From Rhodoluna sp. (GTDB taxonomy: Bacteria; Actinomycetota; Actinomycetes; Actinomycetales; Microbacteriaceae): 64,000 nt of DNA. The stretch is from positions 260,387-324,386 of the forward strand of contig JAHEDR010000001.1 in the NCBI GenBank assembly GCA_024641095.1, given 5' to 3'. The position numbers and the translations under genes were made by a program. Below are positions 440-30,956 of the stretch, piece by piece; within the stretch, counting starts at the first letter, position 1, and every line of letters begins with the position of its first letter. The notes under the pieces were generated by a model. It searched no databases, was not told where the DNA came from, and saw only the letters and a list, made by a program, of their open reading frames with translations.

Positions 440-1750
440 ATGAGTGAGTGGTTAATGCTCGCTTTTGGCCTTATTCTGACCATTGGCACCGGCCTATTTG
501 TGGCCAGCGAGTTTTCACTGGTCAATCTTGAGCGTTCAGACCTAGAGGCTCGTCGCGAACGAGGCGAAAAAGGCCTAAGCAACTCAATTAGGGCCCTGGC
601 TAGAACCAGCACCCACCTTTCGGGAGCCCAGCTGGGCATCACCCTCACCACAATGCTCACCGGATTCTTGGTTGAACCGGCACTTTCATCTCTTCTAGCC
701 CCAAGCATTATTGGGCTGGGTTTGCCTGCCGAGCTGGTTGAAGGGGTGACCCTGGCTATAGCCATGCTGATTGCCACCCTGTTCTCGACCCTGATTGGCG
801 AGCTGGTTCCAAAAAAGCTTGCCCTTACCTTGCCCTTGCAGGTCAACAAATTTGTGGTTGGTTTCCAACTGGCGTTCACCTGGATTTTTGGCGGCATGAT
901 CTTTGTGCTCAACAAGGTGGGCAACGCAATCGTTAGATCTTTTGGAATTGAGCCAAAAGAAGAGTTGAGTTCAACTCGCACCGCCGAGGAGCTCTCATCA
1001 TTGGTAAGACGATCGGCAAGCCTTGGGGCTCTAGATGCCCAGACCGCAACTCTGCTCACCAAGACTCTGGCGCTTAGTCAGCTGGTGGCTGCAGATGTAA
1101 TGACCCCGCGCCCGCGAATGCACGCGCTAGATAAAGATGCAAGCCTGGCCGCACTCATTGAAGCGTCAATCAAAACCGGTCACTCAAGGTTTCCAATTGC
1201 CGACGGCACCGCCGACGACATCATTGGTGTTGCTCACGTAAAGCAGGCTGCTGCTGTACCGCGCGAAAAGCGTCTTGAAGTTCCGGTGTCGGCAATCATG
1301 GCCCCGGCACTTAGGGTTCCAGAAACCATGCGCCTTGAAACACTGATGGTTGAACTACGTGCCAAGGGCCTTCAGCTTGCAATCGTGGTTGATGAATACG
1401 GTGGCACTGCGGGACTAGCAACACTCGAAGATCTTGTTGAAGAACTTGTTGGTGAACTGGCCGACGAACACGACAGGGCAAAGGCCGGCGTTACGCGCGG
1501 TGCTAATTCATCGGTGTTGTTCCCGGGCATGATTCGCCCAGATGAGTTGCTTGAAATGGCAATCAAGGTTCCTGCCGATGGCGCTTACGAAACCGTTGCC
1601 GGTTTCATGATGAGTGAGCTGGGTAGAATTCCGGCTAATGGCGACGAAGTTGAAATTGAAGACGGCGTATTAAAAGTTGAGCGCATGGACGGCAGAAGAG
1701 TAGATCGCGTGCGATTTACTCCAAAGAACACCGATGAGGTGAGCGAATAA
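440..1750 (+). CDS. HlyC/CorC family transporter (CNNM/DUF21 + CBS + CorC_HlyC domain)
   Basis: Full-length ORF; N-terminal DUF21-like TM region, CBS pair, VDEYGGTAGLATLEDLVEELVGEL motif. Confidence 0.9.
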   Translation: MSEWLMLAFGLILTIGTGLFVASEFSLVNLERSDLEARRERGEKGLSNSIRALARTSTHLSGAQLGITLTTMLTGFLVEPALSSLLAPSIIGLGLPAELVEGVTLAIAMLIATLFSTLIGELVPKKLALTLPLQVNKFVVGFQLAFTWIFGGMIFVLNKVGNAIVRSFGIEPKEELSSTRTAEELSSLVRRSASLGALDAQTATLLTKTLALSQLVAADVMTPRPRMHALDKDASLAALIEASIKTGHSRFPIADGTADDIIGVAHVKQAAAVPREKRLEVPVSAIMAPALRVPETMRLETLMVELRAKGLQLAIVVDEYGGTAGLATLEDLVEELVGELADEHDRAKAGVTRGANSSVLFPGMIRPDELLEMAIKVPADGAYETVAGFMMSELGRIPANGDEVEIEDGVLKVERMDGRRVDRVRFTPKNTDEVSE

Positions 1751-2787
1751 TGTCTAGCGACTGGGCAGGAATTATTTGGTTCCTTGTTTTAATTCTTGGC
1801 AATGCATTTTTTGTTGGAGCCGAATTTGCCGTAATCAGTGCGCGTCGCGCTCAGATTGAGCCAAGAGCAGAGGCTGGCAGCAGGCCGGCGAAGATCACAA
1901 TCAAGGCAATGGAAAAAGTTTCCTTGATGTTGGCTACCACCCAACTTGGTGTGACTATTTGTTCTCTTTTGATTTTGATTATTGCCGAGCCAAGCATTCA
2001 TCACCTAATGGAGCCAGGTTTGCACTCGCTTGGCTTTAGTGAAGAAGTTGGCGCCGGTATTGCATTTGCCATCACGCTGGTAATTGTTTCATTCCTGCAC
2101 GTGGTGATTGGCGAGATGGTTCCAAAGAATATCTCGTTCTCTATTCCAGAGCGCGCGGCCTTGGTTTTGGTGCCGGCGCTTTACGCAATCGCACAGGTTG
2201 TTAGACCAATCGTGTTTGCGCTCAACTGGAGCGCAAACGTAATTCTTAGAGCTTTCCGCATTGAACCTAAAGATGAAGCCAACAGCACTTACACGCTGGA
2301 TCAGGTTGAAGACATCGTGGAGCACTCAACTCGCGAGGGAGCGCTTTCGGATGTGAGCGGCGCGCTTTCAAACACATTTGAATTCACCGAGAAAAAAATT
2401 AGCGACGTTGCTGTTCCTGTTTCAAAGCTGGTTGCCTTTGCTGAGACCGTAACTCCACGCGAGGTGGAGCAGGCGGTTGCCAAGCATGGTTTCTCTCGCT
2501 ACCCACTTACCGATGAAGCCGGCGAGCTGGTTGGCTACCTGCACCTAAAAGACGTTATTGACTTAGACGCCGACGAAGCCGATGACCCGTTCCCGGCAAA
2601 GCGTGTAAGAACTTTGATTTCGCTACCGGCAACCATGGAACTTGAAGATGCACTTGCCAGCATGCGCAGAGTGCACGCGCACATGGCTAAATCTTTTGAC
2701 GTAAACGGCCAAGTTCAGGGTGTGCTTTTTCTAGAGGACATTCTTGAAGAGCTGGTTGGCGAAGTTCAAGACGCAACTAGACGCTAG
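1750..2787 (+). CDS. HlyC/CorC family transporter (second paralog)
   Basis: ATG overlaps upstream stop; DUF21 + CBS, FLEDILEELVGEVQD motif. Confidence 0.88.
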   Translation: MSSDWAGIIWFLVLILGNAFFVGAEFAVISARRAQIEPRAEAGSRPAKITIKAMEKVSLMLATTQLGVTICSLLILIIAEPSIHHLMEPGLHSLGFSEEVGAGIAFAITLVIVSFLHVVIGEMVPKNISFSIPERAALVLVPALYAIAQVVRPIVFALNWSANVILRAFRIEPKDEANSTYTLDQVEDIVEHSTREGALSDVSGALSNTFEFTEKKISDVAVPVSKLVAFAETVTPREVEQAVAKHGFSRYPLTDEAGELVGYLHLKDVIDLDADEADDPFPAKRVRTLISLPATMELEDALASMRRVHAHMAKSFDVNGQVQGVLFLEDILEELVGEVQDATRR

Positions 2788-3860
2788 TTAGGAAACTTTC
2801 CTCTTGCGTATTGGTTAGGCCAGTAATCAACCTCTACACCTAGTTCGTGAGCGGCACGCAGTGGCCAAGATGCATCTCTCAGCGAAGCGCGAGCAATCAA
2901 GATCACATCAACCTTGCCCTGCTTAAGAATCTCTTCGGCCTGAGTGCCAGTTGTAATCTGCCCAACCGTGCCAACCGGCTGCGTTACTTCGCCAGCAACG
3001 TGCTCGGCAAGAGGAACCTGGTACCCAGGCCCTGATGGAATCTTCACTCCGGTAATTAACCCACCCGAAGAAATATCAAACATGTCGGCGCCAACTTCGG
3101 CGCACCACTTTGCAACAGTGGCCGTTTCTTCAACGGTCCAGCCATCTTCGCGGTAGTCGGTAGCAGAGAAGCGAATGAAAATCGGAAGTGCTTCGCCAAC
3201 CTCGGCGCGAATTGCTTTAACAATTTCAAGCAAAAGACGGGCACGGTTTTCAAGCGAACCACCAAATTCATCGGTGCGGTGATTTGAAATAGGGGAGAGA
3301 AATTGGTGCAGCAGGTAACCGTGAGCGGCGTGAATTTCTACGGCGTCAAAACCTGCAAGCACCGCGTGCTTTGCTGCGGTTGCCCAGTCGCCAACCAAAT
3401 CTTTTACTTCCGAGGTGCTTAGTTCGCGCGGAGCCTCGTAGCCTTCAAATGCAATTGGTGAAGCAGAAACTGTTTGCCAGCCACCTTTTTCTAGTGGCAC
3501 AGAACCCTTGCCCGACCACTCGCGGTAGGTTGAGCCCTTGCGGCCTGCGTGTGCAAGTTGAATAGCCGCCTTGGCGCCTTGAGAGTGAATGAATTCAACT
3601 ACCCTTGCCCACGCAGCAACCTGATCGAAATTCCATATGCCCGGGCACCAAGGTGTAATTCTTCCCTCGGGAACTACACCGGTTGCTTCGGCAATGATTA
3701 GTCCGGCACCGCCCGCGGCACGCGCGCCCAGGTGCACCAGGTGCCACTCATTAACTACGCCATCTTGGTTTTCGCAAGAGTACTGACACATTGGTGCAAT
3801 AAAAATTCTGTTGCGAACTTCAAGGTCGCGAATCTTTAGTGATTCAAATAACTTAGCCAA
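2784..3860 (-). CDS. NADH:flavin oxidoreductase (old yellow enzyme, YqjM-like)
   Basis: LAKLFESLKIRDLEVRNRIFIAPMCQYS..., HAAHGYLLHQFLSP, EFGGSLENRARLLLEI; TTG start at 3860 chosen from family N-terminus (track ORF extends to 3926). Confidence 0.88.
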   Translation of the reverse strand: MAKLFESLKIRDLEVRNRIFIAPMCQYSCENQDGVVNEWHLVHLGARAAGGAGLIIAEATGVVPEGRITPWCPGIWNFDQVAAWARVVEFIHSQGAKAAIQLAHAGRKGSTYREWSGKGSVPLEKGGWQTVSASPIAFEGYEAPRELSTSEVKDLVGDWATAAKHAVLAGFDAVEIHAAHGYLLHQFLSPISNHRTDEFGGSLENRARLLLEIVKAIRAEVGEALPIFIRFSATDYREDGWTVEETATVAKWCAEVGADMFDISSGGLITGVKIPSGPGYQVPLAEHVAGEVTQPVGTVGQITTGTQAEEILKQGKVDVILIARASLRDASWPLRAAHELGVEVDYWPNQYARGKFPN

Positions 3861-6322: not shown

Positions 6323-7508
6323 TCATTGGTGCAAGCTTGATGTCTTCAATCAAGAAGCCATCGTGACCAAATGCAGATTCAATAACTTGCAAACCGCCAC
6401 CAATAACCTCACCGCCAATGTGATCGGCAATTAGTTTCTGATCTTCAATAGGGAACAGGCGGTCAGATGAAATTCCAACCACGATGCTCTTTGCCTTGAT
6501 TGAACCCAGTGCTGCCGAAAGCGATTCGCGACCTCTTGCAACATCGTGCGAGTTCATTGCTTCAACCAAGGTGATGTAGCTATTTGCATCAAAGCGTCTA
6601 GTGAATTTATTGGAGTGGAAATCTAGGTATGACTCAACAGCCCAGCGGCCGCCTCCACCAAGCGGGCTAACGCCAGATTGCCAAGCACGCTCGAACCTGT
6701 CGTTCAATTCACTTGGTGAGCGGTAATTCAAAATTGCCATGCGGCGGGCAAGTGCCAAACCCTGGTGAGGGCCAAAGCCTGGCTTGGCGTCGTAGTAGCT
6801 TCCGTTTAAGAAAGCAGGGTCAGACTTGATTGCCTGAATCTGAATTGAGTTCAAAGCAATTTGATCCGCGGTCAATGCAGGTGGGCCTGCAATTACACCA
6901 ACGCGCTTAACCTCGTCGGGGTACATGATTGCCCATTCAAGCGCGTGCATTGCACCAACCGAGCCGCCCAAAACCGCATGCCACTTTTTGATCCCAATTA
7001 GGTGAGCCATGTCTCGCTGCGCGTTCACCTGATCGCGAATGGTGATGTATGGAAACGAAGTTCCTAATTCTCTACCATTGGTGTCCAAAGTAGAAGGCCC
7101 GGTTGATCCCTGACATCCACCTAGAACGTTTCCGGCAACCACAAAGTATTTGTCGGTGTCAATTGCAAGGCCCGGGCCAATGATGTGCTTCCACCAACCG
7201 TCTGTTGGGTGTTCCTTTGAGGCGTCGCCGGTTGCGTGAGAGTCGCCGGTGAGTCCGTGCAGAATCAAAACCGCATTGGTGTGCTCGTGATCAAGCTCGC
7301 CCCAGGTTTCAAATGCAATGCGGTAGTTAGCAAGAACGCGCCCGCTCTCTAACTTGAGGTTAGAAAGGGGCGCGAACTGGCGGTCACCAGCAGGGTCACC
7401 GTCGCGCCAAGCACCACTGGCAGGAGGGCGGCCAATAAGTTGGCGGCTCTGCTCCTCAGTGATGAACTCTGACGGGACTAGGTCTCCGGCTGATGTTTGA
7501 AATTCCAT
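6300..7508 (-). CDS. metX: Homoserine O-acetyltransferase
   Basis: ESGRVLANYRIAFETWGELD, VLGGCQGSTGPSTLD, AVLGGSVGAMHALEWA, C-terminal FGHDGFLIE. Confidence 0.95.
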   Translation of the reverse strand: MEFQTSAGDLVPSEFITEEQSRQLIGRPPASGAWRDGDPAGDRQFAPLSNLKLESGRVLANYRIAFETWGELDHEHTNAVLILHGLTGDSHATGDASKEHPTDGWWKHIIGPGLAIDTDKYFVVAGNVLGGCQGSTGPSTLDTNGRELGTSFPYITIRDQVNAQRDMAHLIGIKKWHAVLGGSVGAMHALEWAIMYPDEVKRVGVIAGPPALTADQIALNSIQIQAIKSDPAFLNGSYYDAKPGFGPHQGLALARRMAILNYRSPSELNDRFERAWQSGVSPLGGGGRWAVESYLDFHSNKFTRRFDANSYITLVEAMNSHDVARGRESLSAALGSIKAKSIVVGISSDRLFPIEDQKLIADHIGGEVIGGGLQVIESAFGHDGFLIEDIKLAPMIRELLNS

Positions 7509-7547
7509 TAGGAAATAAGCATATCGCTCTTCCCTCAGCTGACAGGG

Positions 7548-8846
7548 TTACTTGGCGGCAGCGAAGGCACTTTCAAGGTCGGCAATTAGGTCATCCACTG
7601 ATTCAAGACCAACTGACAAACGAACTAGTCCAGGAGTTACACCAGTGGTCAACTGCTGTTCTGGAGTTAGCTGAGAGTGAGTTGTAGAAGCTGGGTGAAT
7701 CACCAACGATCTAACATCACCGATGTTTGCAACGTGGCTAAACAGGTTTAGCGAGTCAACAAACTTTGCACCGGCGCTCACGCCACCCTTGATCTCGAAC
7801 GAAACAATTGCTCCGGCACCCTTTGGCGCGTACTTCTTTGCAGCCTTGTGCCAAGGAGAGCTCTTAAGTCCCGCGTAGTTCACCGATTCAACCTGCTTGT
7901 GCTTCTCAAGGAAGTGTGCAATCTTCTCGGCGTTTGAAACGTGACGCTCAACACGAAGGCTCAGGGTTTCAATTCCCTGAATCAATTGCCATGCGCTTGC
8001 CGGAGCAATTGATGCACCAATGTCGCGCAACAACTGAACGCGCGCCTTGATGATGTAAGCAATTGCATCGCCGAGTGCAGCGGTGTAGTTAACGCCGTGG
8101 TACGAAGGGTCTGGAGTGGTTAGTCCTGGGAACTTATCTGATTTGCTCCACTCAAACTTTCCACCGTCAACGATTGCACCGGCAACTACTGTGCCGTGAC
8201 CACCAAGGAACTTGGTAGCCGAGTGAATCACGATGTCGGCTCCGTGCTCAAGCGGGCGAATTAGGTATGGGGTTGCAACTGTGTTGTCTACCAAAAGTGG
8301 AAGACCGTTCTTGTGTGCAACATCGGCAACACCTTCAATGTCAAGAATTGAAACCTTTGGGTTACCAATGGTCTCTGCAAAGAAAGCCTTGGTGTTTGGC
8401 TTAACGGCTGCCTGCCATTCCTTTAGGTCGTCTTGGTTCTCAACAAAAGTTGTGGTGATGCCAAGTTTTGGCAGGGTGTACTTGAACAGGTTGTAAGTTC
8501 CACCGTAAATAGTTGAAGAAGCAACAATGTGGTCACCGGCTTGTGCAATGTTCAAAATCGCAAAAGTTTCTGCTGCCTGACCCGATGCAAGCAATAGTGC
8601 AGCGGTTCCGCCTTCAAGTGCCGCAATGCGCTTTTCAGCTACGTCTTGGGTTGGGTTCATGATTCGGGTGTAAATGTTTCCAAACTCGGCCAAACCAAAT
8701 AGCTTTGCAGCGTGCTCACTTGAATTAAATGTGTAAGCCGTGGTCTGGTAAATAGGTGTAGCGCGTGAGTTTGTGGCTGGGTCTGGTGCAGCACCTGCGT
8801 GAATTTGCGCAGTCTCAAAACCCCAATTTGCTGAATCTGTGCTCAT
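7548..8846 (-). CDS. metY: O-acetylhomoserine aminocarboxypropyltransferase/sulfhydrylase
   Basis: ETAQIHAG, PIYQTTAYTF, SATKFLGGHGT PLP-lysine motif; start at MSTDSANWGF. Confidence 0.95.
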   Translation of the reverse strand: MSTDSANWGFETAQIHAGAAPDPATNSRATPIYQTTAYTFNSSEHAAKLFGLAEFGNIYTRIMNPTQDVAEKRIAALEGGTAALLLASGQAAETFAILNIAQAGDHIVASSTIYGGTYNLFKYTLPKLGITTTFVENQDDLKEWQAAVKPNTKAFFAETIGNPKVSILDIEGVADVAHKNGLPLLVDNTVATPYLIRPLEHGADIVIHSATKFLGGHGTVVAGAIVDGGKFEWSKSDKFPGLTTPDPSYHGVNYTAALGDAIAYIIKARVQLLRDIGASIAPASAWQLIQGIETLSLRVERHVSNAEKIAHFLEKHKQVESVNYAGLKSSPWHKAAKKYAPKGAGAIVSFEIKGGVSAGAKFVDSLNLFSHVANIGDVRSLVIHPASTTHSQLTPEQQLTTGVTPGLVRLSVGLESVDDLIADLESAFAAAK

Positions 8847-8953
8847 GATTTTCCCTAACTTGATTGAACTTGTTTCACCAACAGTACGAGCCTGGGGCTT
8901 CGAGTAAAAGCCACCGTGAAACACTGCGTAATGTTGGGCTTTACGCTAGAGGA

Positions 8954-9610
8954 ATGTTCTTCGAGCAAATGCACCCAAGCTGGCAGCAAGCCCTGCCAGA
9001 GACCAAGGCCATCCTCGATGCCATTGAAGCCAAACTGGCGCAGAGCCAGGCGCCATTCGTGCCACCACTTGCAAACGTGATGCGTGCGTTCGAGCAGCCG
9101 CTAGATGAAATCAGAGTTTTGATTGTGGGTCAGGACCCATACCCAACCCAGGGCCATGCAATTGGTTTGTCGTTTGCCGTAGATGTGAATGTTAAACCTT
9201 TGCCGCGCAGCCTAAAAAATATTCTGATTGAGCTCAAAGACGACTTAGGTAAATCTGTTTCGTCAGAAGGTGATCTCTCCAAGTGGTCAAAGCAGGGCGT
9301 GCTTTTGCTAAACCGTCACCTCACCACAGATCTTGCCGAAGCCGGGGCACACGGTGAAATTGGCTGGGCCGCATTCACCGACAAAGTAATTGCGGTTCTC
9401 AATAGAAAACTCGGCCGCAAAATGGTTGCCATCCTTTGGGGTAACCAGGCTCAACAATTAGCTCCTACACTTTGCGACAGCACGGTAATTGCCTCGGCCC
9501 ACCCAAGCCCGCTTTCGGCAAGACGCGGATTCTTTGGCTCCAAGCCATTCTCAAAAACCAACGAGGCCTTGGTTTCAGTTGGTGAGCAACCGATAGATTG
9601 GTCTTGTTAG
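8954..9610 (+). CDS. ung: Uracil-DNA glycosylase
   Basis: VLIVGQDPYPTQGHAIGLSFAV, GVLLLN, SAHPSPLSARRGFFGSKPFS. Confidence 0.95.
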   Translation: MFFEQMHPSWQQALPETKAILDAIEAKLAQSQAPFVPPLANVMRAFEQPLDEIRVLIVGQDPYPTQGHAIGLSFAVDVNVKPLPRSLKNILIELKDDLGKSVSSEGDLSKWSKQGVLLLNRHLTTDLAEAGAHGEIGWAAFTDKVIAVLNRKLGRKMVAILWGNQAQQLAPTLCDSTVIASAHPSPLSARRGFFGSKPFSKTNEALVSVGEQPIDWSC

Positions 9611-9619
9611 GAGAGTGCC

Positions 9620-10195
9620 TTGGCTTTAGATTCTGAATCACGCTGGCGCCTAGTGCGCATGATGAAGGCCAAGGGTCTTCAATCAGATTCCAGCGCTGAG
9701 CCAACCATTAGACCGGCAGCCGAGGCCGATCTTGGTGCAATGGTCGAGATTTACAACTACTACATCCAAAACTCAGTCGTAACTTTTGACATGGAACCAA
9801 TGAACCTTGGCGATTGGTCGGCGAAATACAAATGGATCCAAGACCTTGGGTTACCTTTTATTGTTGCCGAGAGCCCAAGCAAGCAAATTATTGGGTTTGC
9901 CTATGTTGCACCTTGGCGTCAAAAAGCAGCTTTCAAGCGCACCGTCGAAGACAGTATTTATTTGCGCCCCGCAGCTATCGGAAAACGAGTGGGAACCAAA
10001 CTTCTTACCGAGCTCTTGGCGCTGGCCAAAGCCGCAGGAGTTAAAGAGGTAGTGGCGGTAATTAGTGACAAGGGTGCCGAATCTTCGATTGCTCTGCACG
10101 AACGCTTTGGCTTCAAGCACCAGGGGCACTTGGGCAAGGTTGGCTTCAAGTTTGGTCGCTGGCTAGGCACCGTGCTCATGCAGAAGTCCCTATAA
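9620..10195 (+). CDS. GNAT N-acetyltransferase (phosphinothricin acetyltransferase-like)
   Basis: IRPAAEADLGAMVEIYNYYI..., YLRPAAIGKRVGTKLL, HERFGFKHQGHLGKVGFKFGRW. Confidence 0.85.
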   Translation: MALDSESRWRLVRMMKAKGLQSDSSAEPTIRPAAEADLGAMVEIYNYYIQNSVVTFDMEPMNLGDWSAKYKWIQDLGLPFIVAESPSKQIIGFAYVAPWRQKAAFKRTVEDSIYLRPAAIGKRVGTKLLTELLALAKAAGVKEVVAVISDKGAESSIALHERFGFKHQGHLGKVGFKFGRWLGTVLMQKSL

Positions 10196-10250
10196 ATAAA
10201 TAGGTCAAGCCGTTCAGGTAGTTCTAAGGTTCGGCGAATAGGCTGAGCAG

Positions 10251-12026
10251 GTGAATAAAACCAGCCGTTTTGTTGCGGGCATCGTTGCCGCAGTTGTTGC
10301 GACCTCTCTATTAATGCCGGCACAGACAGCCACAGCCGCCACCATTACCGCAGCAAGTGCCGTTCGCTCTGTTTCAGCCGGTGATGCCTGGAGTTCAGCG
10401 GCGCCAAGAACCGCAAGAGCAAAACTAAGTTGGGTTAAACCAACTTCAACTTATGGCGCCACCGTTGTTGGCTACAAGATTGAGGTCAGCACAAACAAGA
10501 CCGTTTGGACCACCGCGGTATCAAACACAGGTTCAACTTCAACCAGTGCGTATGTATCGGGTGGATTAAAAATTGGTTCACCAAATTACTTCCGCGTTCG
10601 CGCAATCACCAAAAAAGGTGGCAGCACAAAAACCGGAACAGCCTCGGCCATAGTTTCAAAAACACTAACCGCTAAGCCAAGTGCACCAGCTTTATTGGGG
10701 CTACTAAATGTAACTGCGCCAGCAGAAGCTACCAGAGTGGTTCGTTGGTTGCCGCAGTCAGCTTCACAGCGCGGAGGCTTGACCGTTACTTATAAGGCGA
10801 CCGCCGAAACTGCCGGTTCTGACCCGGTAACTTGTTCAACCTCTACCAAGACTTACTGCACCCTTTCTGGTTTGGTCGCTGGCTCCGTTTATGCACTCAA
10901 GCTCACCGCAAAGAATTCGCGTGGCACTGAGGCAAACGTTACCGAGGTTCAAGCCGCCGATGCAGAGTTTTCTAAGCAGTGGTACCTTGGCACCGATCAC
11001 GGTATTGCTGCAACCAGAGCCTGGACTGCAACTAAGGGTTCTCGCAATGTGGTGGTTGCGGTTCTTGATAGCGGAATTACCAACCATCCAGAATTTGATG
11101 GCCAGTTGGTTGATGGTTTCGACTTTGTTTCAGACACCACAAAGTCTGGTGATGGCGACGGTCGCGATTCCGACCCAACTGACCCAGGCGATGGCTCTGG
11201 CGCGGACTTCAGCTCTTGGCACGGTACGCACGTTGCCGGAATCATTGCTGCCAAAGCAGATGCAGTTGGAATTACTGGAATTGCGCCCTACGTTCGTATT
11301 CAACCAATTCGCGTATTGGGAACCTTGGGCGAGGGTTCATCACTAGACCTTGCGTTGGCAATTCGTTGGGCTGCCGGTCAAGACCTAAATGGTTTGGTCG
11401 CAGCTAGCGAGACGCTATCGGGTATTCCAGTTAACAAGACACCTGCAAAGGTAATTAATCTTTCAATGGCAGGCCGCGGTTCGTGCCCAGGTTCAGTTCA
11501 AGATGCGGTTGCGTATGCAATGAGCAAGGGAATCACCTTGGTCTCTGCTGCCGGCAATGGTGACGATAACAACAACCCAATCGATAACTCACTCGTGTAC
11601 CCAACTAACTGCTTGGGTCCAATCTCGGTTGGTGCTACTGGTTTCACTGGCGATGCAGCTTTCTATTCAAACTTTGGGGTAGACCTTTCGGCACCTGGTG
11701 GCGACCAGCGAAGTGCAGGTGGTGCTCCAGCTGGCTCTGGCGGAATGATTTACTCAACCTCAAACTCAGGCACCAGCACAATTGGTGAATCAATTTATAA
11801 AGTTGAGCAGGGTACGAGCATGGCTGCGCCAGTTGTATCAGGAATCGTGGCGCTGATGTACTCACTAAGACCAAACGTCACCTCCGATGAAATCTGGAAA
11901 GCTCTCAAGGCATCGCTAAGACCATTCCCGGCAGGTTCAATCTGTTCTACAACTCCAGGGCGATGCGGCTTGGGTGCAATCAATGCTGCCACCGCGCTTG
12001 AAGAGCTAATCGCAATCACCGGCTAG
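10251..12026 (+). CDS. Secreted S8 (subtilisin-like) serine peptidase with N-terminal fibronectin type III-like region
   Basis: GTG start, signal peptide, catalytic triad motifs VAVLDSG / HGTHVAG / GTSMAAP. Confidence 0.92.
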   Translation: MNKTSRFVAGIVAAVVATSLLMPAQTATAATITAASAVRSVSAGDAWSSAAPRTARAKLSWVKPTSTYGATVVGYKIEVSTNKTVWTTAVSNTGSTSTSAYVSGGLKIGSPNYFRVRAITKKGGSTKTGTASAIVSKTLTAKPSAPALLGLLNVTAPAEATRVVRWLPQSASQRGGLTVTYKATAETAGSDPVTCSTSTKTYCTLSGLVAGSVYALKLTAKNSRGTEANVTEVQAADAEFSKQWYLGTDHGIAATRAWTATKGSRNVVVAVLDSGITNHPEFDGQLVDGFDFVSDTTKSGDGDGRDSDPTDPGDGSGADFSSWHGTHVAGIIAAKADAVGITGIAPYVRIQPIRVLGTLGEGSSLDLALAIRWAAGQDLNGLVAASETLSGIPVNKTPAKVINLSMAGRGSCPGSVQDAVAYAMSKGITLVSAAGNGDDNNNPIDNSLVYPTNCLGPISVGATGFTGDAAFYSNFGVDLSAPGGDQRSAGGAPAGSGGMIYSTSNSGTSTIGESIYKVEQGTSMAAPVVSGIVALMYSLRPNVTSDEIWKALKASLRPFPAGSICSTTPGRCGLGAINAATALEELIAITG

Positions 12027-24601: not shown

Positions 24602-25012
24602 ATGATCGTTCTAGCAATTGCCGCGCTTGCGGTTTCAATTTACGCAGCTCGTGGTTTTTACAAGGCGGGTTCATTCAAGTCAAAGGCAAACAAGGAAACC
24701 CTTCTTGGTGCTGGCATGGGTTGGGTAGCCAAGGTTCCGTTTGGTTTGGTTCGCCTAATCGCTTGGCTTGAGGTTCTTGGCGCAATCGGTGTTGTTCTTG
24801 CTCCAATCGGCGCATACGTTACTGGCCTTGTATGGGCACAGTGGGTTGGTGTTGCTGCGGGTGCTGGTTTGGCACTGACCATGGTTGTGGCATTCATCAT
24901 GCACGTTGCACGTGGCGAAGCAAAGTACACCTGGAAGATGAACCTAGGTCTGTTTGCAGCAGCTGCGATTGCAACTGTTCTTCAGGCACTTGTAGTTCTT
25001 CCACTGTTCTAA
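24602..25012 (+). CDS. DoxX-like family membrane protein
   Basis: 4-TM small protein, GLVRLIAWLEVLGAIGVVLAPIGAYV. Confidence 0.7.
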   Translation: MIVLAIAALAVSIYAARGFYKAGSFKSKANKETLLGAGMGWVAKVPFGLVRLIAWLEVLGAIGVVLAPIGAYVTGLVWAQWVGVAAGAGLALTMVVAFIMHVARGEAKYTWKMNLGLFAAAAIATVLQALVVLPLF

Positions 25013-25776
25013 AACGTTTTTATGCCGGCCCTGCTGGCTGCTCTTTCTAGGGCGGCTAGTAGGGCCGGTGCCGTTACGAAGATAAGCGCGACGGTTGTAA
25101 CCGCACGGCCTGTGTCCCAAATCAATCCACCCGTCAAAATTTGAAACTGCCAAAACTTTTCGAGATTGGTCAGCAGTCCGCCGTTGGGCACAAATGAAAG
25201 GCCGCTGTCTTTTCCGGCTAGGTATGGCCAGTTCCACATGGTCATCATCGCGCCATAAACATAGCTGGCAACAAATCCGTAGCTTGCCAGAACAGCTATC
25301 TGCAAAACTCGAGTGCGAACCTTTGGTAATAAACCTGCACCAATACCAACCAGCCCTGCCGCCATCATCTGAAACGGCAACCACGGGCCTACGCCACCGG
25401 TCAATAAACCCGATACCAAAAGCGATAACGCCCCCATCGCAAACCCAAAGCTGGTTCTAAAAATAAATCCAGAGATCACAATCAGAAAGAAAGCTGTCTC
25501 GATTCCGCCGACACCTGCACCCAGCATTCGAATCACGGAATTAAGGGCAACCAAGACGGCTAATAAGCCAAGGATCTTTGAGTCGGTTCCGCTTGCTGTG
25601 AATTGAACCAATAGCAAAATCAAGAGCATTGGGATCAAAACCATAAAAACCGTTTGGGCGAATCCTGTTTCGGTTGCGCTGTTGCTGGTTGCGAGTAGTG
25701 GCCAGGTAAATATCACGAGCGAGGCCAGTGCTACCAGGGCAGTTACGCCCTTGCTGGCTAATGATGAAGCGTTCAT
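25009..25776 (-). CDS. ECF transporter S component, inferred cobalamin/corrinoid
   Basis: RMLGAGVGGIETAFFLIVISGFIFRTSFGFAMGALSLLVSGLLTGGVGPWLPFQMMAAGLVGIGAGLLP; operon with ecfA/ecfT and cobalamin riboswitch. Confidence 0.85.
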   Translation of the reverse strand: MNASSLASKGVTALVALASLVIFTWPLLATSNSATETGFAQTVFMVLIPMLLILLLVQFTASGTDSKILGLLAVLVALNSVIRMLGAGVGGIETAFFLIVISGFIFRTSFGFAMGALSLLVSGLLTGGVGPWLPFQMMAAGLVGIGAGLLPKVRTRVLQIAVLASYGFVASYVYGAMMTMWNWPYLAGKDSGLSFVPNGGLLTNLEKFWQFQILTGGLIWDTGRAVTTVALIFVTAPALLAALERAASRAGIKTF

Positions 25777-27143
25777 TGTGAAGCCTCATTTCTCTTTCTC
25801 AGTTGACCCTGCACCAATTCGTAGCGATTCGCCGCAATTTGCGCTGCAAAGTCACTGTCGTGAGTAGCCAAAAGTACAGCGGTGCCGCTGCTGGCTATTT
25901 GCACAAGCTGTTGGGCCAGAGCCTGCTTAGCTCTATAGTCAAAGCCCTTGGTTGGTTCGTCCAGCAAAATTAGGTTGCTGCCGGTGGCAAGTTGAATGGA
26001 AATCACAAGAGCTAATTGTTGACCAACCGATAAATCTCGGGGGTGAATTTTGGGATCAACTCGGCCAACCAATTTGGCGAAGATTCCCGAGGTGTGATTT
26101 GGCTGCGCCTTTGAATGCCTGTCTGATTCGGCAAACTCTTTGGCAAGAGTGTCTAGAAATAGTAGGTCGCTTGCACGTTGAGGAACCAGCGCCAGGGAAC
26201 CACTAATTTCAACTTCTCCACGGTGCTTTTGCAATACACCAGCAATGGTTAGCAAGGCCGTGGTCTTGCCAGACCCATTAGGCCCTTCAAGTGTTGCAAT
26301 CTCTGATTCGCGTATTTCTAGATTCAGGTTGCTAATTACTGGATCTTGATCTTTTGAGTAGCGCGCCTCAAGATCCATGACTTCTAAGGCAAGGTTCTTT
26401 CCGGTAGCAATTGCCAAATGTTCCCTTGGTGAAATCCATTCGGGTAGCAGCATGCCTATTGAATCCGGCGTTGCTGGTAGTTTTGCCGCCGAGCCATCGC
26501 CTTTCAGCACCACTATTGAGTCTGCGAATGGCAAGGCGCGCTCGTATCTGTGTTCGCTCAACAAAATTGTTGTTCCGGTTGAGTCGGCAATGCTTCTAAG
26601 GGTCTTGAGTAGGTTCAGTGCTGATTTCTCGTCTAGGGCAGAGGTTGGCTCATCTAGAAGAAGAGTTTTTTGCCCGGCGGCCAATGCGGCGGCAATTGCT
26701 ACTCGTTGTTGTTGTCCTTCCGAAAGCTCAGTGGTTCTAGAGTCAAGCAATTCGGAAATCTTCAGAAGTTCAGCAACGCGGTTTACGTTCTCACGCATCT
26801 GCGAAACAGATACCTCAAGCTGCTCCATACTAAACGCAATTTCCTCAATTACGGTCTCGGCAACAAATGCAGACTCTGGTTGTTGGTTGACATAGCCCAA
26901 TAGGTGAGCAATTTGATGAGGACGTTTCTGTGAAATCTGGAAGTCGTTAATCCATACAACACCTGTAGATTCCGCGGTCTTAGGGTTAAGTTGAGCAATT
27001 GCCTTGAGCAAAGTTGATTTTCCACTTCCGGTTGGACCGCAAATCAAATTCACAGTGCCGGTTGCAAACTCTAGCGATACGCGCCTGAGAATATTAGATT
27101 CTTCGTTGCCGAAGCCGTAGTTTAGATTATGAACCTTAATCAA
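25773..27143 (-). CDS. Energy-coupling factor ATPase, two fused ABC domains (EcfA-EcfA')
   Basis: Two Walker A motifs GPTGSGKST and GPNGSGKTT, signature LSEGQQQRVAIAAALAAG and LSVGQQLALVISIQLATG. Confidence 0.92.
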   Translation of the reverse strand: MIKVHNLNYGFGNEESNILRRVSLEFATGTVNLICGPTGSGKSTLLKAIAQLNPKTAESTGVVWINDFQISQKRPHQIAHLLGYVNQQPESAFVAETVIEEIAFSMEQLEVSVSQMRENVNRVAELLKISELLDSRTTELSEGQQQRVAIAAALAAGQKTLLLDEPTSALDEKSALNLLKTLRSIADSTGTTILLSEHRYERALPFADSIVVLKGDGSAAKLPATPDSIGMLLPEWISPREHLAIATGKNLALEVMDLEARYSKDQDPVISNLNLEIRESEIATLEGPNGSGKTTALLTIAGVLQKHRGEVEISGSLALVPQRASDLLFLDTLAKEFAESDRHSKAQPNHTSGIFAKLVGRVDPKIHPRDLSVGQQLALVISIQLATGSNLILLDEPTKGFDYRAKQALAQQLVQIASSGTAVLLATHDSDFAAQIAANRYELVQGQLRKRNEASQ

Positions 27144-28084
27144 AGCGCTGCTCCCAAACTCAGGCTAAGCACCGGGGCCACCACCGAGAGCACTGCAGGA
27201 ATTAAATCGAGTGCTGAAAACTTATTTCGTACCAAGCGCGTTTTTGAATTTGAACTGTTGGTTATTGCCAAGGAAGCAATTGCTAGCAAGAGCGCAATAA
27301 GAAGCCACGCATAGTTCTGTGCTCCTGAGGTGATGACTAAATACGCTCCTATACCGGCTGCCAATGCCGAAGAAATTGACAGCAAACCGCTAAGTAGTCG
27401 TGCACTTGAATTAATCGAGGAACCAAAACCTCGCGATTCCATGCTGACCGATAATGCAATTGTGGATTCGATTGCATCTTCTAAAACAGGTATCACAATT
27501 GACGCCATGGCACCGATGCCATTGCTTCTGCCTCTTAGTTTCTTTGCCGCGCGTACCCTGTTCAAGCTCTTAATGATCTGTGGCGCAAGATTTATAGCCA
27601 TAGAAACCGCGGTTCCAATTTCATATAGCGCGGCTGGTGTAGATTTCAAAAGTTTTCTAGGATTCGCAAGCGAAGCGGCAACTGCTATTCCAAGAATGAT
27701 TGCTGCTAATCTAAGCCCCTCAACCATTGCGCTCACCAAAGCCTGAGCGGAAACGGCTCCTAGTATCTGAAGTTCTTGACCAAACCAGAATTGAATCGAT
27801 AATTTCGGTAAGTCCAAGATGGTGTCATTCGCACTGTAAGTCGTGTTGAAAATAATTCGGAAAACAATTCGAGATAAAACCACAGCAGCGGCCAATAAGA
27901 GATAAACCCTAAGCGATACCGCCGCACCTAGTTCTTTAGGTGAGAGCGCCAGCAAGACGACACATAGAGCTATCAAACAAGTCAGAAAGCCTAGGTTTCT
28001 AGATAGTGAGGCGGCCGCGGCTAAACCAAGCCCAAAAAACCACAAGCTTGCCGGGTGAAAACTATTTGGATTCAAAAGTTTCAC
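27140..28084 (-). CDS. EcfT-type transmembrane component
   Basis: MESRGFG motif, RAAKKLRGRS coupling-helix-like motif, 4-bp overlaps with neighbours. Confidence 0.88.
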   Translation of the reverse strand: MKLLNPNSFHPASLWFFGLGLAAAASLSRNLGFLTCLIALCVVLLALSPKELGAAVSLRVYLLLAAAVVLSRIVFRIIFNTTYSANDTILDLPKLSIQFWFGQELQILGAVSAQALVSAMVEGLRLAAIILGIAVAASLANPRKLLKSTPAALYEIGTAVSMAINLAPQIIKSLNRVRAAKKLRGRSNGIGAMASIVIPVLEDAIESTIALSVSMESRGFGSSINSSARLLSGLLSISSALAAGIGAYLVITSGAQNYAWLLIALLLAIASLAITNSSNSKTRLVRNKFSALDLIPAVLSVVAPVLSLSLGAAL

Positions 28085-28626
28085 TTGGTCTCACAGGTAA
28101 AAGGTTTAGGTTCAATTCGCGGTGGGGAATTGGCATCGGTGTTTGAAGTCACAAAGCGCCAGCCATCAACCTCGCCACAGCCCGGCTTTCGCGCGGCAGC
28201 TCCCATGCCACTTCGTACCCAGCTGCCGTCTGCCTTGCCGGCCGCAGCAACGTAGTACACCCAAGTACCAGTGCTAAAGCTGGGAGTGCCAAGGCAATCT
28301 TCTGCATCAGCTTCGGGAACATCATTGATGCGACATAGAAATGACTCTGGGTACTCTGCAGTGCCCACAACGTTCAAACCAGCTGCCTGTAAAAGTTGCC
28401 ATCCGGATCCTGCGAAGTTCTCTACGCAATAACTTTGGGCGCTGCCTTGGCCATCGCCATAATCAACAATCAGAGTTGTGCCAGTATCACTGCACGCAAC
28501 TTGATTTACTGAAGGCAAATTTGAAGGCGCTGAAATTTCATTATTAGGAGCCACCGATATCACTGCGCCAAGTGCAACTGTGGCAAGCAGAGATATTAGG
28601 ACGGCTCCAAATGGAACCCTTCTCAT
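28081..28626 (-). CDS. Secreted DUF4430/transcobalamin-beta-domain-like protein
   Basis: N-terminal signal/anchor; LLQAAGLNVVGTAEYPESFLCRINDVPEA...GTWVYYVAAAGKADGSWVRSGMGAAARKPGCGEVDGWRF pattern. Confidence 0.75.
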   Translation of the reverse strand: MRRVPFGAVLISLLATVALGAVISVAPNNEISAPSNLPSVNQVACSDTGTTLIVDYGDGQGSAQSYCVENFAGSGWQLLQAAGLNVVGTAEYPESFLCRINDVPEADAEDCLGTPSFSTGTWVYYVAAAGKADGSWVRSGMGAAARKPGCGEVDGWRFVTSNTDANSPPRIEPKPFTCETK

Positions 28627-29616
28627 TTACGGAAGCAGATCTAGGTAGCTTTTGCCAAGAAGCGGCACAATTGCCTGGGCGGTGGCGTAAACATCTCCCG
28701 CGCCGTTCGACCAAGGCGTCATGAATCCACCCTTTGGCGCAAGCTGCAGTTTTAGCCACGCCACGTGAGAGGCAAGTGCTGTTGGTTTTTTACCCGCAGC
28801 CTTGAGTCCCATAAGAGCGTAGGCAGTTGAATTTACCGATGGCTCACCGTACGCGTTCCAGTGACTGTCTTCGATATCTGTAGCAAGCAAGTATGCAACT
28901 GCCTTTTTCTCAGACGTGGCACGCTTTTTATCTTCTGAATCTGAGCCAAAAGTCTCACGGTAATTAATTGCCTGCAGGGCTAGACCGGTTGCATCAGGAG
29001 TAGATACAGATAAATCTGCTTCACCAAATCCGCCATCAGTATTTTGCAGAGTGATGAGTTTTTGCACGACCTTATTTGCCAAGGTGTATTCCTGGTAGCT
29101 GTTGAGTCCAAGTGCCACCCACGCGTAATCAATTGCGCCGGACTCGGTGCCAGTAATTTCGCCAGTCTTCGGGTTAATTTTTGCGGCTAGCTTTTTGAAG
29201 ATCTCGTATCGGATTGCATTATTCGAAACATTGATTGCTTCGCTAGTGAAAAGGAATTTACCAACGCGGCCAACTTTTAGAGACTTTGCAGCATCCTTGT
29301 TAAACAAGTAGCCCTTTGAAGAAGAACCAATCGGTTGAGTCTTTGTAGACAACATGTAGGTGATGGCTGGAATCTGTTGCACAAAAGTTTTACCTCCAGC
29401 TTTCAGCTGCAACATTGCTTCAAGAGTGAAGCCATACTCCGGTGTTCCGGCTGGAAAGCCATCCAGTGCTTTTCCGTTGACCATTGAACCCGATAGGAAC
29501 GCAACGGTGCTTGCATAACGAGCTGCCGCGCTTACCTGGAGGGGTGTTGAAAGAGCGATGGTTGTGATGCTGATGATTGCTGCGAATTTGCGCAACCCAG
29601 ATTTTGTTCCAAACAT
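28627..29616 (-). CDS. Secreted prenyltransferase/squalene-oxidase-repeat (transcobalamin alpha-domain-like) protein
   Basis: Signal peptide; alpha6/alpha6-like repeats (QNTDGGFGEADLSVSTPDATGLALQAI; SVNSTAYALMGLKAAG; YATAQAIVPLLGKSYLDLLP C-terminus). Confidence 0.8.
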   Translation of the reverse strand: MFGTKSGLRKFAAIISITTIALSTPLQVSAAARYASTVAFLSGSMVNGKALDGFPAGTPEYGFTLEAMLQLKAGGKTFVQQIPAITYMLSTKTQPIGSSSKGYLFNKDAAKSLKVGRVGKFLFTSEAINVSNNAIRYEIFKKLAAKINPKTGEITGTESGAIDYAWVALGLNSYQEYTLANKVVQKLITLQNTDGGFGEADLSVSTPDATGLALQAINYRETFGSDSEDKKRATSEKKAVAYLLATDIEDSHWNAYGEPSVNSTAYALMGLKAAGKKPTALASHVAWLKLQLAPKGGFMTPWSNGAGDVYATAQAIVPLLGKSYLDLLP

Positions 29617-29711
29617 AAGGAACCTTTCGCATAAAGCGATCTGAGTGCGAAGGCGAATAGGCGTAGGCCAATTCGACTCCGACCGTAGACCTCGACGGTA
29701 AATATGGAGTC

Positions 29712-29838
29712 ATTTGCTGGCTCTGCAGGCATTCCGACTTTCGAGGAATCGATCACGGTTGCGGGTCAGCGCTGGATTTTCACCAACTTCCCCTGCAGAA
29801 AGCAAAATCAGTTGGCTTTTGACCAACACGGTAAATCT
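29712..29838 (-). promoter_or_regulatory. Cobalamin riboswitch
   Basis: Minus strand: ...CTGCAGGGGAAGTTGGTGAAAATCCAGCGCTGACCCGCAACCGTGATCG...AGTCGGAATGCCTGCAG; B12-box core GGTGAAAATCC-GCGCTGACCCGCAACCGTGA, and CTGCAGG/CCTGCAG pairing. Confidence 0.93.
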
Positions 29839-29851
29839 ACCTGCTTATGAG

Positions 29852-30601
29852 CTAGGGAAGCGGGAGGCTCTTGCCTACGAGAGCGTAGCCAACAAACGAA
29901 ACCGTATCTAATAAGAAGTGCGCCAAAACCAGCGGCATTACTCGGCCCCATCGTTTATAGAGCCAGCCAAATACCAGGCCCATTACAAAGTTGCCCACGA
30001 AGCCGGCGAAGCCCTGGTACAAGTGATAGCTGCCTCTGAGTGCGGCACTGATAACAAGCACAGCTCTGCTGCTTAGCCCAAGTTTTTCGAGGCGGTCAAA
30101 AAGGTAGCCCACCACCAAGACCTCTTCAACCAGCGCGGCTTTTACTGCAGCGAGCAACAAAACTGGCACCGCCCACCAGTAATCGGGCAATTCTGCCGGA
30201 ACAATTTTGGAAGACAGCCCCAGAACTCGCGCACCTATATAGAGGGCTAAACCTGGCACCCCAATAGCTGAGGCCAGCAAAAGGCCCCTTGGAGCCCAGA
30301 AACCCGGTGTTTTGAAGCTTAAACCCAGCAGTTTGAAGGGGTTTTGATTGGTTTGCCACAGTAAATAAAGAGCCAAAGCCACCGGCGCCAAGCCAAAAGC
30401 CACCGAAAGCAGTTGATAGGTCAGATCTAGCCATTCGGCACGGGCCATTGAGCCATTTATCTTGGTGACCTGGGCACCCAAGCCAGCAGGGGCCAAAAGC
30501 TTAGATATAAGGGAAACCACAGAGTAAACCGCCGATGCCCCAAGACTCAGGGCAAAAACGATCAAAATCTCTATAAAAAGCGGCTTACGGGCGGTCTTCA
30601 A
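29852..30601 (-). CDS. CPBP family intramembrane metalloprotease
   Basis: AALVEEVLVVGYLFDRL, RGSYHLYQGFAGFVGNFVMGLVFGWLYKRWGRVMPLVLAHFLLD; TTG start at 30601 inferred. Confidence 0.88.
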   Translation of the reverse strand: MKTARKPLFIEILIVFALSLGASAVYSVVSLISKLLAPAGLGAQVTKINGSMARAEWLDLTYQLLSVAFGLAPVALALYLLWQTNQNPFKLLGLSFKTPGFWAPRGLLLASAIGVPGLALYIGARVLGLSSKIVPAELPDYWWAVPVLLLAAVKAALVEEVLVVGYLFDRLEKLGLSSRAVLVISAALRGSYHLYQGFAGFVGNFVMGLVFGWLYKRWGRVMPLVLAHFLLDTVSFVGYALVGKSLPLP

Positions 30602-30956
30602 TTGAACATTCCTTGGTTCCACCGGGCAATCGGTGTCTATTTTTAGCAATCCAACGGTAAACCAAGGCTGAAACCGGCCCAAATGCCCTGATCAAAGCAC
30701 CGATAATTCGCCAGCCCAATGCGGGTTGATTGGTGAATAACCAGGCCACAGCAAGGTGACCGCCCAGGTGGTTCTGCCCATCAACTAACCAAACCTTGGC
30801 TTGAACCTCGGCAAGTGAAAGTTGGTATTCGGTCAAATCAACATTTTGATAAGCCGCGTATCGTGGCATGGCTTTTAGGTGATTGATTGCCCAAAGCAAG
30901 CTGTTTTTGCAAAATGCGCAATCCCCGTCATAGATAAGGAGTGCGCCGGCATTCAT
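30585..30956 (-). CDS. DCC family thiol-disulfide oxidoreductase (DUF393)
   Basis: LLIYDGDCAFCKNSLLWA motif. Confidence 0.9.
   Translation of the reverse strand: MNAGALLIYDGDCAFCKNSLLWAINHLKAMPRYAAYQNVDLTEYQLSLAEVQAKVWLVDGQNHLGGHLAVAWLFTNQPALGWRIIGALIRAFGPVSALVYRWIAKNRHRLPGGTKECSIEDRP

Follow-up and report, generated by a model that had tools for sequence, protein, structure and literature searches.

The window analysed here, a stretch of 64,000 nucleotides from a Rhodoluna sp. contig, carries on its minus strand an operon in the order riboswitch, alpha, beta, EcfT, EcfA1A2, EcfS (Table 1). The sole RF00174-type match in the whole 1.2 Mb genome falls in the same leader as the AdoCbl-II riboswitch (window 29707-29842; G000:C7:290093-290228). 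A cobalamin riboswitch was also located upstream of 5 of the 12 relatives' loci scanned (L039, L044, L047, L048 and L055). The beta, EcfT, EcfA1A2 and EcfS genes follow one another with successive 4-nt overlaps. The last three encode an ECF-type vitamin importer (T-A-S), in which T and S are assigned by position and conservation and not by family score; the EcfT-like protein gave no Pfam or NCBIfam match above cut-off and the EcfS-like protein matched no named family in either collection. The alpha-beta-T-A-S order is kept across Rhodoluna and in other families. At one locus from another family (L038) the five genes adjoin metH, named by its likeness to the MetH of the window genome. The ORFs and the synteny bear out the central observation of an earlier, sequence-only reading of this DNA, namely that alpha-type and beta-type domains are carried here by separate polypeptides, follow one another as in vertebrates and adjoin ECF genes.

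Table 1. Features of the operon, with positions in the window
Feature	Position	Strand	Remarks
AdoCbl-II (cobalamin) riboswitch, operon leader	29719..29809	-	Rfam RF01689, 39.6 bits, above gathering
Alpha, 329 aa, putative secreted alpha/alpha-toroid protein	28627..29616	-	predicted signal peptide, residues ~1-31 (29524-29616)
Junction TAA/ATG	28624..28629	-	stop of alpha ORF directly against start of beta ORF
Beta, 181 aa, putative DUF4430/SLBB-related domain	28081..28626	-	predicted N-terminal anchor, residues ~8-25 (28552-28605)
EcfT-like transmembrane protein	27140..28084	-	position and family-wide synteny; 4-nt overlap with beta
EcfA1A2, fused pair of ECF-type ATPases	25773..27143	-	two ABC_tran stretches; best NCBIfam TIGR04520/TIGR04521
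EcfS-like substrate-specific membrane protein	25009..25776	-	synteny and conservation

Upstream of the riboswitch the window encodes a CAAX-type, Rce1-like protease (PF02517; 29852-30682, minus strand). The start of its gene is overlapped by a small ORF (30585-30956, minus strand) containing LIYDGDCAFC. A similar protease-like ORF still adjoins the orphan alpha of L046 described below.

The junction of alpha and beta

The stop codon of alpha (TAA, 28629-28627) abuts the start codon of beta (ATG, 28626-28624) with 0 nt between them. The alpha ORF ends in YATAQAIVPLLGKSYLDLLP and the beta ORF begins with MRRVPFGAVLISLLATVALGAVISVA. Read off the minus strand at 28624-28629, both the contiguity of stop and start and the peptide ends quoted earlier proved exact. 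The two ORFs share one reading frame in this window (CCG TAA ATG AGA), and as a single stop codon divides them, one might suppose one gene given a false stop codon by sequencing or assembly error. The probability of this is close to nil. The split is kept in an independent Rhodoluna MAG, the nearest named relative (L008), whose alpha is 82% identical and whose TAA/ATG junction is the same, and it is kept with other spacings in the remaining readable Rhodoluna loci; beta moreover has a hydrophobic start of its own. A frameshift or sequencing error is in practice ruled out by the L008 junction and by the two ORFs of the other Rhodoluna loci.

Every Rhodoluna locus in which both genes are readable has two ORFs, with gaps of -1 to +19 nt. 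The relative frame of alpha and beta is thus not conserved, and the shared frame in the window is incidental. Where stop and start touch or overlap (TAAATG, TAATG, TGATG), coupled translation would be favoured.

Domain assignment

The alpha family profile matches squalene-hopene cyclase structures with E=1e-12, and alpha is, as judged by sequence, an alpha/alpha toroid. A broad alpha profile also reaches transcobalamin-1 (4kki; E=0.019), positions 104-336 of 338 in the profile aligning with residues 79-304 of the chain, so that the match covers the C-terminal two thirds and extends to the C-terminus of alpha. Transcobalamin was not found when the profile was restricted to the last 100 residues. 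Within Rhodoluna the C-terminal end is moderately conserved (SYLDL, SYVAL, SYPGL, SFIDV). The vertebrate homology that had been proposed for the YLD end is compatible with the weak transcobalamin-1 match and is not proven by it. One of the 36 alpha members matches PF01122, weakly (E=0.007). Of 33 Rhodoluna alphas, 6 have a lipobox and the others a signal peptide that looks cleavable; signal and anchor calls throughout were made by simple pattern and hydropathy tests rather than by a trained predictor.

Beta is more divergent. No Rhodoluna beta matches any Pfam family, including PF14478 at its curated cut-off, and a search of the PDB with beta profiles matched no relevant chain. A DUF4430 search of the window's own genome gave no match because beta is too divergent. 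Comparison of beta with 27 actinobacterial DUF4430 proteins by hhalign gave a probability of 82% over 97 collinear columns (E=1e-5). The iterated class-wide beta profile and the DUF4430 profile overlap on one segment of L090/L128, L107, L114 and L101. This iteration drew on sequences gathered in the present analysis, which makes the late E-values too favourable; before any iteration the beta profile already matches L107 at E=2e-4. In the joint alignment of beta and DUF4430 the helix (TGWQLLQAAG / ATVYDALVATG), the strand (FVCRI-G / YV-I-G) and the terminal segment (CG--EGW-F / GD-V-W-Y) are kept, and the W of GxWxY/F is invariant. Through profile-profile comparison and intermediate sequences, beta is linked as a probable remote homologue to the DUF4430/transcobalamin C-terminal (SLBB) superfamily. 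The DUF4430 label given in the sequence-only reading therefore stands at superfamily level, where hhalign and the intermediate sequences support it, and falls as a Pfam family assignment.

All Rhodoluna betas have an N-terminal hydrophobic segment (15-residue hydropathy 1.96-3.09). It follows a few positive residues and normally lacks an obvious cleavage motif. The claim that the second ORF carries its own export or anchor segment is consequently upheld. AlphaFold models built from two-sequence alignments were too poor to use (pLDDT 33 for alpha, mean pLDDT 36 for beta).

Age of the two-gene form

The separation of alpha and beta could be a recent fission, in which a stop codon arising between the domains broke an ancestral fused carrier whose halves still cooperate. 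The shared frame and single stop codon in the window would suit this, as would the fused toroid-SLBB proteins known from animals and, in either order, from other bacteria (PMC1796856). We hold it to be extremely improbable. The two-gene state is common to Rhodoluna and other families of Actinomycetia; within the genus the frames vary and beta has its own signal or anchor, and in the other families the anchors differ. In L038 and L043, for example, a lipoprotein alpha accompanies a beta whose transmembrane helix is C-terminal; such differences between families imply that the pair is predicted to lie outside the membrane in several ways. No ORF fused in the order alpha then beta was found with the alpha and beta profiles in the dozens of actinobacterial loci read. 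Fission in this lineage, one of two origins offered earlier, is hence not sustained, and the fused alpha-DUF4430 proteins that it led one to look for beside ECF genes did not appear in that order in the actinobacterial loci sampled. Since the split is widely shared and no such fusion was found, the unfused state would go back at least as far as the sampled class itself. The two-gene form is, on these comparisons, the normal, old actinobacterial state and not a recent gene break. The carriers of animals have been proposed to derive from low-GC Gram-positives (PMC1796856).

Fusions of other kinds do occur. L129 contains a 1228-aa open frame (6736-10419, minus strand) in which beta is joined to an Ig domain, a pair of alpha toroids and, at the C-terminus, a membrane helix. 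In L136 a 744-aa open frame (920-3151, minus strand) carries EcfS (weak PF12822), followed by an alpha toroid and again a C-terminal membrane helix.

B12 requirement and distribution in the genus

The genome encodes MetH (PF02310, 1208-aa open frame) and a search for CbiC found it absent. This small freshwater bacterium therefore probably needs an exogenous corrinoid; B12 auxotrophy is deduced from CbiC as the sole biosynthesis gene searched. Among 67 Rhodoluna genomes, alpha is present in 50 and beta in 53, one of the latter weakly. Counting strong beta matches, 45 genomes have both, 5 alpha only, 7 beta only and 10 neither (Fisher p=1e-4). In near-complete genomes, beta and MetH occur together in 14, beta only in 3, MetH only in 1 and neither in 4 (p=0.02). 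Both p-values are indicative only, because the genomes share ancestry and not all of them are complete.

Two genomes, G154 (single-contig) and G202, have an orphan alpha (L046:7428-8402 and L049:6727-7698, both minus strand), with no clear beta, no ECF genes beside alpha and no MetH. The flanking genes at both loci match those of the window. Beta-T-A-S seems to have been lost there, and the remaining alpha looks like a leftover.

A proposed receptor for B12

In our view alpha and beta are likely to be the two halves of one receptor that takes up cobalamin (B12) outside the cell and passes it to the downstream ECF importer. The riboswitch, the conserved gene order, the toroid, the link of beta to DUF4430, MetH without CbiC, the co-occurrence and the L129 and L136 fusions all support this. 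Low adenosylcobalamin would allow the riboswitch to permit expression of the entire operon. The alpha toroid would be exported, and beta, a beta-grasp SLBB domain, would be tethered to the outside of the membrane through its N-terminal anchor. Alpha and beta would then close on one corrinoid, as in transcobalamin or intrinsic factor but without a covalent linker, and the closed pair would present it to EcfS, uptake being driven by EcfT and the fused EcfA1A2. B12 as the ligand, the off/on regulation, the two-jaw clamp, the docking to EcfS, the anchor and the coupled translation are what we infer from these parts. The EcfS-alpha fusion in L136 supports a location of alpha close to EcfS.

Several observations count against the receptor. 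Beta gave no direct match in Pfam or the PDB. Orphan alphas exist in G154 and G202, and beta occurs without MetH in three near-complete genomes. The S-component CbrT binds B12 unaided with nM affinity (PMC5997447). In loci from several genera (L131, L132, L133, L141, L154 and L155) the stretch read contains beta-T-A-S and no alpha that could be recognised; alpha is thus dispensable there, which counts against a strict two-jaw model. That such loci are common, and that alpha and beta are anchored independently, would fit a system in which beta by itself receives B12 and partners EcfS. Alpha would then be an accessory with no shared binding site, serving as second binder, as cell-wall tether or in the capture of other corrinoids. 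This seems unlikely to us given that alpha and beta are adjacent and co-occur in Rhodoluna, that a natural beta-alpha fusion is found in L129 and that in transcobalamin the site is shared by both domains.

B12 riboswitches can control the uptake of cobalt and of precursors too. This, and an EcfS that belongs to no named family, would also be consistent with the same parts importing cobinamide, a cobalt chelate or another tetrapyrrole and not intact cobalamin. We rate such a substrate as very unlikely: with CbiC absent, cobalt by itself would not serve to make B12, MetH is present, and the receptor parts are of the B12-carrier type. A B12 receptor made jointly by alpha and beta is the reading that we carry forward.

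A different economy of parts is seen in L131 and L132, where a single open frame of ~1015 aa spans EcfT, the two ATPases and EcfS (L131, 6340-9397; L132, 5926-8968; both minus strand). Each adjoins a beta lipoprotein and no alpha was seen. The long frame is possibly a one-chain ECF importer.

A putative permuted form of beta

Many of the class-wide matches covered just the C-terminal third of the beta profile. At all 20 such loci read (L133, L139-L155, L157 and L158; e.g. L141:4110-5060) the halves of beta are swapped and the gene is placed before EcfT(-A-S). A profile with swapped halves outscored the native one by 18 to 33 bits on 20 of 20, over nearly the full length, and 12 native-order proteins preferred the native profile. 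The NCBI family SCO2322 matches the 6 swapped proteins scanned from end to end. Residues 131-170 of the window beta align with positions 14-54 of 144 in the SCO2322 profile (NF040672) at 21.6 bits against a cut-off of 85, and the window beta is not a member. At the level of sequence these comparisons support well the view that SCO2322 proteins carry the beta domain in circularly permuted form and take the same operon position. As to a permutation of alpha in SCO2321-type loci, the order is ambiguous owing to the toroid repeats.

No paper on a permuted transcobalamin-type domain or on SCO2321/SCO2322 was found in the part of the literature that the search covered, and the SCO2322 permutation is new as far as could be found. 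A 2007 fold survey names circular permutation for the E1 UFD domain (PMC1949818). We lean, by a small measure, towards the broader proposal that actinobacterial ECF loci encode a two-part receptor for B12 resembling intrinsic factor, with beta in two permuted versions and with or without the toroid. If this is true, the single-chain carriers of animals would represent one way among several in which an older set of separable parts was put together.

Relation to known systems

Transcobalamin, intrinsic factor and haptocorrin have the same succession of alpha/alpha toroid and beta-grasp SLBB domain, and extracellular B12 binding is predicted for the Rhodoluna pair as well. The animal carriers are one chain with a linker, whereas the Rhodoluna proteins are two polypeptides with separate export signals; a stop codon lies between the domains and two ORFs are found genus-wide, which places the pair outside the single-chain definition of that family. 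Sequence similarity is at the edge of detection, and the Rhodoluna pair would feed an ECF importer where the carriers feed receptor endocytosis.

The general concept, SLBB domain and toroid beside CbiO/CbiQ scavenging B12, is already published (Burroughs et al. 2007, PMC1796856). In transcobalamin the B12 molecule is enclosed between the SLBB domain and the toroid, and in bacteria SLBB genes are neighbours of CbiO/CbiQ (PMC1796856). The bacterial SLBB/DUF4430 and toroid proteins of that study are like ours in their kinds of domain, CbiO/CbiQ neighbourhood and B12-scavenging role. They differ in being fused SLBB proteins, stand-alone ones or ones with other domains, mainly from low-GC Gram-positives; the adjacent actinobacterial alpha/beta pair is not described there (PMC1796856). 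The NCBIfam families SCO2321 and SCO2322, from Streptomyces and relatives, occupy the same position before EcfT-A-S. Both halves of beta are present in SCO2322, which often lies beside a toroid protein, but they are swapped with respect to the window beta, and the window proteins score far below the cut-offs of both families. ECF-CbrT of Lactobacillus delbrueckii is likewise an ECF-type cobalamin importer; CbrT binds B12 without an external receptor (PMC5997447), whereas the dedicated T-A-S operon of Rhodoluna adds a predicted receptor pair.

The 2007 prediction of bacterial relatives of intrinsic factor with ECF-type importers would take the shape here of a compact system of two genes, open to experiment, in aquatic bacteria with small genomes. 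The concept can be tested through the split pair and its anchors, through the fusions and through the permuted form; direct clues to the contacting surfaces come from the two kinds of fusion (EcfS-alpha, beta-alpha) and from the circular permutation. A function is also suggested for SCO2321 and SCO2322, families with locus names only. ECF importers are usually held to need no external binding protein, and the question is raised of how they would use one.

Other DUF4430 arrangements were seen beside ECF genes. In two Streptomyces-like loci (L119 and L127, ~12.4-13.5 kb) the order is beta-T-A-S-alpha, with a second, canonical DUF4430 protein right after alpha. L120 and L121 encode giant secreted-type proteins (up to 1886 aa) with three DUF4430 domains each; to that of L121, Pfam adds a beta-propeller-like stretch and a Listeria-Bacteroides repeat.
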